A stretch of DNA of 38,766 nt, taken from the NCBI GenBank assembly GCA_018433885.1, contig JAHDQK010000057.1, forward strand, positions 1-38,766, read 5' to 3'. This stretch comes from Candidatus Cloacimonadota bacterium (GTDB lineage Bacteria > Cloacimonadota > Cloacimonadia > Cloacimonadales > Cloacimonadaceae). The notes under the pieces were generated by a model. That model saw only the letters and a program-made list of their open reading frames with translations. It did no database searches and was not told the origin of the DNA. A program made the position numbers and the translations under genes. Of this stretch, positions 3,512 through 6,400 are shown piece after piece. Within the stretch, counting starts at the first letter, position 1, and each line of letters begins with the position of its first letter.

Positions 3512-4288
3512 CTACTGAGAATTGATGGTCGACAGTTCCTTGGCTGCGGTCCAGCTTACAAAATCCTGAGGTAAGCGAGAGAATCCAGTTTTCTCATAGA
3601 CTTTAGAAGTCGCTGGATTATCCGAGAAGAGGTACAAGTGGTTCTCGCTAATGCCTTTGTGATATAGCACCAAAGAGTGGATCATCGTGGCGGCAAAGCC
3701 TTTTCCCCGGAATTTCTCTCTGGTAAACACGTCCGAGATTCTGCTGTATCCCGCATAGGTGCAGACGGATGCCAACGCTGCCAATTCTCCGTGATGGTAT
3801 CCTCCCAAGAGATGGTAGGAGGGATGCTGCAAATGGCGTTCAACCACCCGAATAGTCCAATCCCCACCATATTCCAATGCGATTGTCTCCATGATATCGA
3901 TATCAAGGTGTTTGATTCTTTGAATCTGGAGCTCTTCGTTTGGTTTTACAATGCTCTCATGGTCGTGCAGAAAGTATTCGTAACCGGTAAGTTCGATGTT
4001 GAAACCATGTTGTTGCAGAGGAGCAGACACTTTGTCCAACTCATTTACCTGCAGGGAACTGAATATCCGCGGCGAAATGCCTTTGCCCTTATAAAATGAT
4101 TCGATGTCTCTCAGGCTACTTTCGATGCCTACGAAATCCTTGATCACCGCGTGGTTACTTTCCGCCGATGCTTTGTTGCCTTCATTCCAGAAGATCAAGC
4201 CATAATCTCTCTGAGTCATATTGGCAAAGCGTTGCGGGTAATGCAATTCCGTGTCTTTCATACGGAGGATGTTGAAGGGTATAGACAT
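3512..4288 (-). CDS. GNAT-family N-acetyltransferase
   Basis: 258 residues. The C-terminal half (about 120-250) is a GNAT acetyl-CoA-dependent acyltransferase domain. The acetyl-CoA pyrophosphate loop appears as REKFRGKGFAATMI near residue 190, followed by the usual beta5/alpha4 region with LYLFSDNPATSKVYEKTGF, the late GNAT motif where an Asn and Tyr lie near the cofactor. The N-terminal 115 residues are less conserved and may be a degenerate second GNAT domain, as in tandem-GNAT proteins. The start is supported by AGGAG seven bases upstream. The gene stands alone between the secreted-protein terminator and the ECF transporter operon. The substrate cannot be read from the sequence. Confidence 0.8.
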   Translation of the reverse strand: MSIPFNILRMKDTELHYPQRFANMTQRDYGLIFWNEGNKASAESNHAVIKDFVGIESSLRDIESFYKGKGISPRIFSSLQVNELDKVSAPLQQHGFNIELTGYEYFLHDHESIVKPNEELQIQRIKHLDIDIMETIALEYGGDWTIRVVERHLQHPSYHLLGGYHHGELAALASVCTYAGYSRISDVFTREKFRGKGFAATMIHSLVLYHKGISENHLYLFSDNPATSKVYEKTGFSRLPQDFVSWTAAKELSTINSQ

Positions 4289-4360: not shown

Positions 4361-4837
4361 TCAGCTTTTATGCAGATTTTGGATCCTAGTGTAAGCGGCA
4401 AAGAGTAATCTGCCCCCGATAAAGCCAAGGGTTGCCTGCAGGATGTTTGGAGGAAAGTCCGCCACTGCTGCGGCTTTACCAAAGCTGGGCATATACCATG
4501 TTCCCAAAAAATAAATCGCTACCATCAAGATTCCCCCTAGGATGGGCCAGGCATTTCTTAAGAAGCCGGAGGATGCCTTCCCTCTTCCCGCGCAATAGCC
4601 CAGAACTCCCTTTGCGACCAGCGTAATCGGAGCGAATAGCGGAAATCCGATGATATCGGCAATCGCAGAACCGATCCCTCCCGCCACCATCCCGGCTCGG
4701 GAACCGCCATATAGACCGCAGAACACGATCACTACATCACCAAAATTGAAGTATCCCCCTCCCGGAACGGGAATCCTGATCAATAAGGTACTGACCGCAA
4801 CCAATACCGTAAATCCAACCGTCGTGTACCATTTCAT
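4361..4837 (-). CDS. ECF transporter S component (substrate-binding membrane subunit)
   Basis: 158 residues with about five or six hydrophobic segments. The pattern PVPGGGYFNFGDVVI followed by an Ala/Gly-rich GGIGSAIADIIGF segment and a FAPITLVAKGVLGY segment is that of the PF07155-like S-component family (the riboflavin/HMP/pyridoxine-type group). S components bind a vitamin or vitamin precursor in the membrane and depend on EcfT plus an EcfA dimer for ATP-driven uptake. The gene is last in a four-gene operon and its ATG overlaps the stop of the T component by four bases. The substrate is not determinable here: no riboswitch or biosynthesis gene is adjacent. Confidence 0.8.
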   Translation of the reverse strand: MKWYTTVGFTVLVAVSTLLIRIPVPGGGYFNFGDVVIVFCGLYGGSRAGMVAGGIGSAIADIIGFPLFAPITLVAKGVLGYCAGRGKASSGFLRNAWPILGGILMVAIYFLGTWYMPSFGKAAAVADFPPNILQATLGFIGGRLLFAAYTRIQNLHKS

Positions 4838-5484
4838 TGTTTATCTCCTGAGTCTGTTAAATCCTTATTCCTTACCTGTTTGAGATGACATTGCATGATC
4901 AGGTTATCGATCCGTTCGCCCTTCATTTCTGCCTCTGCCATTATGTAAAGGATCAATGCGAGAGTAACGCTCAATGCTCTGAAGAACCTGTCTTTCACTC
5001 CGCTTGAACCTCTTTGCATCGATGGCATCATACCCTGCCACATTCGGATTTCAGCATAAGAATGAGTAGCAGCGTCGAACAGGATTTTCCCCAATATCAC
5101 ATATTTCAACCGATGAATGCTGATTCCGCTACGTAATATCTCTTCGAAAGATATCATCGCGAAACACAGTCGAAACGCAAGGATGGCATTGATCAAAAGC
5201 AACATCCTGGGCAGACCGTATGCCAGCCAATACTCAGTGGAACCTTGCCCGGAGGGATCGATCCCGATCAATATAAAACCAAGATAGATGATCGCCAACA
5301 TCCCCACGAATGGAAGCAGCAGCTTCATCTGACCCACCAGACGCCGGGCCCCCAGAAAGATAAATGACCCAACCACCAAACCGATCATCATCGCCCCTTG
5401 CAGAGCTAGATTTTGGAACCATATTATTGCAAACAACACCGTCCAGATCAAAAACAAGAGGGATGCCAGAATCAAGCGTTTCAC
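4834..5484 (-). CDS. ecfT: ECF transporter T component (EcfT)
   Basis: 216 residues, strongly hydrophobic at the N-terminus (four or five membrane segments to about residue 120), then a helical region of about 90 residues carrying small-residue and basic motifs. This is the CbiQ/EcfT layout in which coupling helices contact the ATPases. It starts with GTG at 5484, giving a GTGA overlap with the stop of the upstream ATPase subunit, and ends in an ATGA overlap with the S component, so it is translationally coupled on both sides. The assignment rests on topology plus position between ATPase and S-component genes; the exact coupling Ala-Arg-Gly motifs are not clear in this copy. Confidence 0.75.
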   Translation of the reverse strand: MKRLILASLLFLIWTVLFAIIWFQNLALQGAMMIGLVVGSFIFLGARRLVGQMKLLLPFVGMLAIIYLGFILIGIDPSGQGSTEYWLAYGLPRMLLLINAILAFRLCFAMISFEEILRSGISIHRLKYVILGKILFDAATHSYAEIRMWQGMMPSMQRGSSGVKDRFFRALSVTLALILYIMAEAEMKGERIDNLIMQCHLKQVRNKDLTDSGDKQ

Positions 5485-5996
5485 TGCGAGAGCTCCCTAG
5501 AACTGGAACCTTCATAAACCATGCTTTGGGAACCATTCACAGGCTCAAAGTTCACCGCTCGGGATTCCGGTAAATTATAGATATGTGAGCTATAGATAAG
5601 GCAGATCTCCCGCTTTAGCCCTTGGGGGATCACGAGTTTCTTCGCCTCATCAGATATCACCACCACGGGTTTGCCGTCTTTCATCTTAGCCAAATCCGTC
5701 CACATCAGATCCCACACGTCTTTTTCGTCCACGATGCGACTCTTGGGATAATAGATTGCCGCCCATGCTCTCATCGCATATAGTTGCAAATCCATTTGCT
5801 GTTGGATGCGGATCACATAGCAATCATCTCTCTTTATAATCTTTTCCCACAATACTTTGTGAATGAAGCTACTCTTCCCGCTACCATTGGGACCCGACAG
5901 ATGATACACATTGCCAGCACGAAAGATAATCTCTTCCTTCAAGGTCAAAGTAAAACCTTGCCAGACATGGTAGTTCCCCGCTTTCACCTGAATCAT
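5481..5996 (-). CDS. ECF transporter ATPase half-subunit with Walker A/B but no signature motif
   Basis: 171 residues from the ATG at 5996. An upstream in-frame start at 6053 exists, but 5996 makes a clean ATGA overlap with the preceding gene. Visible ABC ATPase elements are Walker A GPNGSGKS (35-42), a Q-loop IQQQMDLQL (64-72), Walker B VVVISDE (111-117, Asp116/Glu117) and an H-loop SSH with His138. The helical subdomain between Q-loop and Walker B is only about 40 residues instead of the usual 70-80 and has no LSGGQ. Full EcfA proteins are about 270-290 residues, so this is a compact nucleotide-binding core. The missing signature motif is on the neighbouring protein encoded just upstream. 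Together they probably energise the T/S components. Confidence 0.75.
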   Translation of the reverse strand: MIQVKAGNYHVWQGFTLTLKEEIIFRAGNVYHLSGPNGSGKSSFIHKVLWEKIIKRDDCYVIRIQQQMDLQLYAMRAWAAIYYPKSRIVDEKDVWDLMWTDLAKMKDGKPVVVISDEAKKLVIPQGLKREICLIYSSHIYNLPESRAVNFEPVNGSQSMVYEGSSSRELSQ

Positions 5997-6400
5997 GCCC
6001 GCTCCCACAAAATGTTTTTCCCGCTGTGGATGATCAAATCTCGAATCTTGCAAAACCTTCCTGGATCCAGAGAATGCTCTAGATTGATGAAGCTGATGGA
6101 GTCCGCGGGAGAGTGTAGCGCAAGCAGTGCCATCAGGATTACTTTCTGTCCTCCAGAAAGTTCTTTTAGGGAGCTGTCTGCGGATACTTCCTTTTTGCAG
6201 ATAGCACGAAAATCCAGATACAATCTATCAGCGGCTGCTGGATTGATGTTGTATAACAGCATTTCATCCCAAAGTTTATCGCTGCAGATAAGGGGATGTT
6301 CCGCATCGGCAATTAGATAGTCGTGCATGATATCCATATAGAGCAATGCCTTCGGGATCATCCTTTCTGTCAAGCAGAGTGTTGTGTAGGAGTATCCCAA
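5993..6400 (-). CDS. ECF transporter ATPase half-subunit with LSGGQ signature but no Walker A
   Basis: 135 residues if the TTG at 6400 is used, or 122 from the ATG at 6361. It carries the ABC signature LSGGQK (81-86) within a helical subdomain, then a Walker-B-like strand ISFINLEHSLDP in which the normal Asp-Glu pair is not conserved. It ends at ILWERA, just before the H-loop histidine should appear. There is no Walker A, and the frame is closed by TAA at 6413-6415. It complements its downstream partner, which has everything except the signature. ABC catalytic sites join Walker A of one subunit to the signature of the other, so one functional site could form. No good ribosome site marks either start. 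Decay of an old full-length ATPase is the alternative. Confidence 0.65.
   Translation of the reverse strand: MGYSYTTLCLTERMIPKALLYMDIMHDYLIADAEHPLICSDKLWDEMLLYNINPAAADRLYLDFRAICKKEVSADSSLKELSGGQKVILMALLALHSPADSISFINLEHSLDPGRFCKIRDLIIHSGKNILWERA

Follow-up and report, generated by a model that had tools for sequence, protein, structure and literature searches.

In the usual description, an ABC motor is a dimer that closes around two molecules of ATP, and the D-loop of a signature-bearing ABC domain faces the same site as the signature. In SMC and Rad50 proteins, a single domain is assembled from the N- and C-terminal lobes; one of these lobes contributes Walker A, and the signature, Walker B and H-loop come from its counterpart. 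Each site of an ABC dimer consists of the Walker A and Walker B motifs, Q-loop and H-loop of one domain together with the signature of its partner; the middle of the interface is occupied by the D-loop (PMC7756269). The motors of known ECF transporters (EcfA/EcfA'/EcfT/EcfS; for example ECF-FolT, HmpT in 4hzu and CbiMQO in 5x3x) are built from two full-length ATPases with two ATP sites, both of which are needed where tested; in the L. delbrueckii ECF module, mutation of the catalytic Glu in either subunit abolishes ATPase activity and transport (PMC10368641). EcfT carries two X-Arg-X docking motifs, one per ATPase (PMC10368641). Heterodimeric ABC exporters (TM287/288, TAP, MRP1) combine one consensus and one non-catalytic site in an asymmetric mechanism; both domains have their full length, and ATP binding persists at the degenerate site, for which a role as glue has been suggested (PMC7756269). 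Why heterodimers keep a dead site, usually one that still binds ATP, is debated (PMC7756269).

Here we describe a locus in a Candidatus Cloacimonadota genome, contained in a 38,766-nucleotide stretch of one contig (hereafter the window), in which two short genes, A and C, appear to take the place of the ATPase pair, followed by genes for a membrane protein (T) and an ECF substrate-binding component (S). The locus resembles ECF transporters in its recognised S component (PF07155), in its compact operon encoding two ATPase-derived subunits and a membrane partner, and in the predicted fold of C, which matches CbiO and an ECF module; however, A and C are each trimmed, only one site can form between them, and T is unrecognisable as EcfT. 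Likewise, one consensus and one non-catalytic site are reminiscent of the heterodimeric exporters, whereas the second site of the A/C pair is absent rather than altered, with no Walker A and no signature, and should bind no ATP. The literature searched contained nothing on ECF transporters in Cloacimonadota and no account of such split ATPase halves.

Gene layout and conservation of the locus

The open reading frames of the window placed C, A, T and S in that order as four minus-strand genes, with a 4-bp overlap at each junction. The genes and their motifs are as follows.

5993..6328, minus strand: gene C, the signature half, 111 aa from ATG 6328 (114 aa from the alternative start, ATG 6337); helical subdomain, LSGGQ, vestigial Walker B strand, D-loop and last core strand
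6146..6160, minus strand: LSGGQ signature of C, residues 57-61, conserved in 31/31 pairs
6065..6070, minus strand: D-loop Leu-Asp of C, residues 87-88, conserved in 31/31 pairs
5481..5996, minus strand: gene A, the Walker half, ATG at 5996, 171 aa, complete P-loop core
5868..5894, minus strand: Walker A of A, GPNGSGKSS, residues 35-43
5799..5801, minus strand: Q-loop Gln66 of A, conserved in 31/31 pairs
5646..5663, minus strand: Walker B strand of A with Asp116-Glu117, conserved in 31/31 pairs
5583..5585, minus strand: H-loop His138 of A, conserved in 31/31 pairs
4834..5484, minus strand: gene T, a 216-aa membrane protein that starts with GTG and overlaps A by 4 bp; candidate EcfT by position
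4361..4837, minus strand: gene S, ECF substrate-binding component of 158 aa, PF07155, overlapping T by 4 bp

An earlier reading of the sequence alone (the sequence-only reading) had described two overlapping half-genes joined by an exact ATGA; this was confirmed on the minus strand, where C ends at 5993 and the junction with A is an ATGA overlap of 4 bp. The C and A genes also overlap at most junctions among the loci of relatives, which fits coupled translation. The start common to all relatives lies just before a YLIADA-like strand, the first core strand of C, and the upstream extension of C is not conserved among relatives and is interrupted by stops in two of them; C therefore probably starts at ATG 6328 or ATG 6337. 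A longer C from TTG 6400 was ruled out, as this extension is unconserved and contains stops in relatives.

The surroundings of the operon varied between loci. Inspection of neighbouring genes for a clue to the substrate revealed none common to all loci besides C, A, T and S, and no Rfam element was found within the window. A GNAT acetyltransferase gene located downstream of the operon (window 3512-4288) was present only in six loci of the window's genus, and in 12 loci (L050-L061) C is preceded, at a distance of about 0.6 kb, by a tadA-like deaminase gene. In these same 12 loci, the frame preceding C often resembles a translated tRNA gene (GYPGFESLTLRH), suggesting that the operon may begin right after a tRNA.

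In a first search of 60 relatives with each half as query, A and C identified the identical 26 genomes, all belonging to the window's Cloacimonadaceae-like family and distributed over ten genera, and the order C-A-T-S was kept at every one of the 26 family loci, which came from 25 relatives and from the window itself. A phylum-wide search of 125 Cloacimonadota genomes showed that strong matches to A, C and S coincide in 34 genomes, all from the family, which corresponds to 34 of the 49 family genomes; the matching set includes one single-contig genome. Beyond Cloacimonadota, the search consisted of one degenerate pattern scan (SGGQKVxLM), which would miss the diverged type found in family f9 (see below), and its named matches were all Cloacimonadota, including Candidatus Syntrophosphaera thermopropionivorans. 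For pairs of relatives with measurable dS, dN/dS was 0.05-0.26 in both genes, indicating purifying selection on A as well as on C.

Two short overlapping ORFs look at first sight like a broken gene, that is, a frameshift, a sequencing error or a decaying pseudogene of one normal EcfA. However, the signature part comes first, in reverse of the order within one ATPase, and the arrangement recurs at 26 loci and in 34 genomes, including the single-contig genome, with dN/dS well below 1; conservation and dN/dS together rule this explanation out, leaving it next to no probability. The sequence-only reading, which had argued against a simple frameshift, was thus borne out: no relative fusing both frames into one normal ATPase was found, and decaying codon patterns were not seen, both halves showing purifying selection instead.

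Division of the ATPase motifs between the two genes

In the window, A contains GPNGSGKSS, Q66, VVVISDE and an SSH H-loop, and an LSGGQ-like motif is absent. C contains LSGGQ and SLD, lacks Walker A, has Asn-Leu at the position of the Walker B Asp-Glu, and stops ahead of the H-loop. The full set of ABC motifs is thus divided over two chains, neither of which carries it alone, and A and C are not two full-length ABC ATPase subunits of the kind found in an ECF transporter. Consistent with this, A matched PF00005 under the cut-off (E=0.01), and C gave no match to it.

Analysis of 31 distinct A/C pairs revealed the same division throughout. Walker A was present in 31/31 A proteins (Gly-x-Asn-Gly-[SA]-Gly-Lys-[ST]-Ser) and 0/31 C proteins, and the signature LSGG[QE] in 31/31 C proteins and 0/31 A proteins; Q66, D116, E117 and H138 of A and L87-D88 of C were invariant in all pairs. 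The catalytic Glu was absent from every C (31/31), with Asp, Asn, His or Ala followed by a hydrophobic residue at the position of the Walker B Asp-Glu. These motifs were kept in all 31 pairs even where identity to the window protein fell to its lowest values, 24% for A and 34% for C (amino acids), and the invariant columns of the A alignment were almost exactly the catalytic motifs. No hidden Walker A was found upstream of C in any frame within 450 bases at the 26 loci. With all motifs kept in 31 of 31 pairs, the arrangement is far beyond chance.

The motif losses track the ATP site rather than the domain: the elements of one composite site are all kept, each of them once, and those of the other are gone. 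The division of motifs in 31/31 pairs supports the earlier proposal that the A/C pair could form one working and one dead site, and the D-loop, which that proposal had left out, follows the same partition. The description of A as a protein of 171 aa with Walker A, Q-loop, Walker B and H-loop and without LSGGQ also held, both in the window and across the 31 pairs. For C, the presence of LSGGQ, the lack of Walker A and H-loop and the altered Walker B stood, but the length of 122-135 aa did not, the protein probably having 111 or 114 aa.

Predicted folds and diverged relatives

AlphaFold2 predicted each half separately and with confidence from only 20 sequences, at a pLDDT of 92 and a pTM of 0.86 for A and a pLDDT of 96 and a pTM of 0.90 for C. 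The A model contains the P-loop core strands, including those of the Q-loop, Walker B and H-loop; the signature helix, the D-loop and the helix following it are missing, and a 14-residue helix-free loop joins the Walker B and H-loop strands. The same three strands recur in the C model as separate copies, arranged around the helices of C. Since the same core strands are kept in both, A and C are predicted to be two trimmed ATPase domains rather than one divided domain.

A fold search with C gave 25 PDB matches at E<=1e-3, all of them ABC-type ATPase domains by description; CbiO (5x3x) and, with a TM of 0.71, an ECF module (8bms) were among them. The matches of A were weak, none reaching E<=0.001, and comprised ABC and other P-loop ATPases, with ABC domains giving the top TM-scores; the ABC identity of A therefore rests on its motifs, layout and context. 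Comparison of sequence profiles linked A to the Walker A region of ABC proteins, including EcfA of 4hlu at E=0.0026, and C to the LSGGQ regions of SMC and ABC proteins. The first PDB match of the C profile was SMC3, through LSGGQ and the strand following it. Despite this likeness to SMC/Rad50-type ATPases, the division differs, as A keeps Walker A, Walker B and the H-loop together, and only the signature and D-loop are separate, in C.

Two kinds of relative were found outside the family. Three genomes of family f9 have the same C-A-T-S order with strongly diverged halves: C carries LSGGE, with SLS in place of SLD, and A carries GDNGSGKTT, MDET and SHN. Profile comparison joined these halves to those of the window (C, E=1e-9; A, E=1e-14), and the f9 S protein is 37% identical to the window S. 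Family f10 (genome G054, locus L085, 3998-5383) encodes instead an unsplit 461-aa protein with two tandem ATPase domains, in the order ATPase-T-S. Domain 1 has LSGGE and WLD, with GNENKAFT at the Walker A position, MHG at Walker B and LEQEY at the H-loop; domain 2 has Walker A, SQFPESQ, LDEP, SLD and SHAHG intact, and its signature is replaced by LSFAEMK (LGFAEMK in a second, truncated f10 locus). Window C aligns to domain 1 (84-191, E=1e-8), and the best match of A in this protein is the Walker A of domain 2. The f10 S protein is 50% identical to the window S; the T profile gave no alignment with the f10 T protein.

The f10 protein thus shares with the window the operon order and the same split of roles, here between domain 1 and domain 2, but it is one protein with both domains at full length, its losses are substitutions, and domain 2 retains its D-loop. 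It was the only full-length version of the ATPase found, and because it shows the same pattern of one good and one dead site, it supports the one-site idea rather than opposing it. The f10 tandem ATPase is a plausible intermediate towards the A and C halves. In the simplest history, whose direction we infer, a tandem or paired ATPase would have lost one site by substitution and then deleted the unused parts.

The predicted folds and the f10 protein also bear on whether A and C co-fold as a single ordinary ATPase domain, so that two A-C units would make a normal dimer with two ATP sites. The helical subdomain is missing in A and present in C, and the 4-bp overlaps suggest matched synthesis, both of which would suit such complementation of fragments. 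However, the Q-loop, Walker B and H-loop strands occur in both predicted halves and would be duplicated, C keeps a vestigial Walker B strand without Asp-Glu, and the unsplit f10 relative consists of two full tandem domains, with C aligning to the first. We consider co-folding into one domain unlikely.

Membrane partners and the candidate one-site motor

S is a recognised S component of an ECF transporter (PF07155, E=4.9e-22, above the cut-off), and its closest solved structure is chain S of 4hzu (E=9e-5), which is HmpT (PMC4860826). T has several hydrophobic segments and is always located between A and S (26 loci), and comparison with known EcfT by Pfam, PDB and profiles gave no match. The C-terminus of T carries a conserved [KR]GE.ID motif, which, by eye only, coincides in position with a docking Arg-Gly of EcfT, one of the two Arg motifs there; a second Arg docking motif was not seen in T. 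The main check proposed by the sequence-only reading, a search of relatives for the two genes beside an S component, was positive at 26/26 family loci; the neighbour that it took for ecfT is unrecognisable as EcfT by sequence.

Two further architectures of these membrane proteins were observed. In genus g5, T and S are encoded in a single open frame (L050, L051, L052, L054 and L058; for example, L054 5014-6111), a natural fusion, and in several further g5 genomes S lies within an open frame 369-416 aa long. The protein encoded at L090 (2754-3848, genome G097) combines an S-component-like membrane domain with a C-terminus that has HAMP-like and coiled-coil parts, and resembles a receptor.

The lack of detectable similarity between T and EcfT would be in keeping with another reading, in which A and C formed one ATP site in a complex with a role other than import, or T were a new kind of membrane partner and no EcfT. 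The constant position of T between A and S, the joining of T and S in one open frame in one genus, and the [KR]GE.ID motif at the docking Arg-Gly position, as placed by eye only, all speak against this alternative, to which we assign a very low probability.

The halves could also be regulators or relics, with a standard EcfA pair encoded elsewhere driving the transporter in trans. A standard ECF set is indeed present in the window genome (contig 16, L092) and in many relatives, and for known systems a sharing of one ECF module among different S components has been proposed (PMC7755397). On the other hand, at least eight family genomes with C-A-T-S have no PF02361 match for EcfT, although a divergent one could be missed by this profile, and some of these genomes (G008, G028 and G032) are 95-99% complete; moreover, the catalytic residues of A are invariant, and a regulator would not need them. 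Driving in trans is thus quite unlikely. The standard set of the window genome (L092, G000 contig 16, 36500-43500) adjoins a thiamine diphosphokinase gene (TIGR01378), and its 192-aa EcfA has LSKGT in place of LSGGQ, a milder loss of one site.

The explanation we favour is that A and C probably serve as the ATPase pair in an uptake transporter of the ECF type, one with its motor reduced to a single ATP site. A would contribute Walker A, the Q-loop, the H-loop and a Walker B that includes the catalytic Glu, and C would contribute the LSGGQ signature and the D-loop, closing over the ATP bound to A. Of the two sites in a normal ABC dimer, the second would be gone, with C lacking Walker A and A lacking the signature. 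ATP binding would clamp A onto C, and hydrolysis would release them and reset the motor; this closing and opening would drive T and S, with T passing the movement to S. The 1:1 A:C heterodimer, ATP hydrolysis, coupling via T and transport are steps that we infer. As the ECF transporter tested depends on both of its catalytic Glu residues (PMC10368641), an ECF motor with one site would need another mode of working. We lean, by a narrow balance, towards a stricter form of the one-site motor, in which each cycle of the A-C pair would involve the binding and hydrolysis of just one ATP, a second nucleotide site being absent altogether, even for binding. This motor would have evolved stepwise, by point mutation of a tandem ATPase (f10) followed by deletion of all dead-site parts (f1, f9).

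By its sequence features, the A/C pair represents a new form of ECF/ABC motor; it is conserved in one family at least, and another family has a diverged version. If the one-site motor is real, these uncultured bacteria would drive a vitamin-type uptake pump with a conserved natural motor from which the second site has been physically removed, which would mean that one site suffices and that the two-ATP sandwich is dispensable for an ABC transporter. With an ATPase of only about 280 residues, it would also offer a very small system in which to test how one ATP drives closing and opening.
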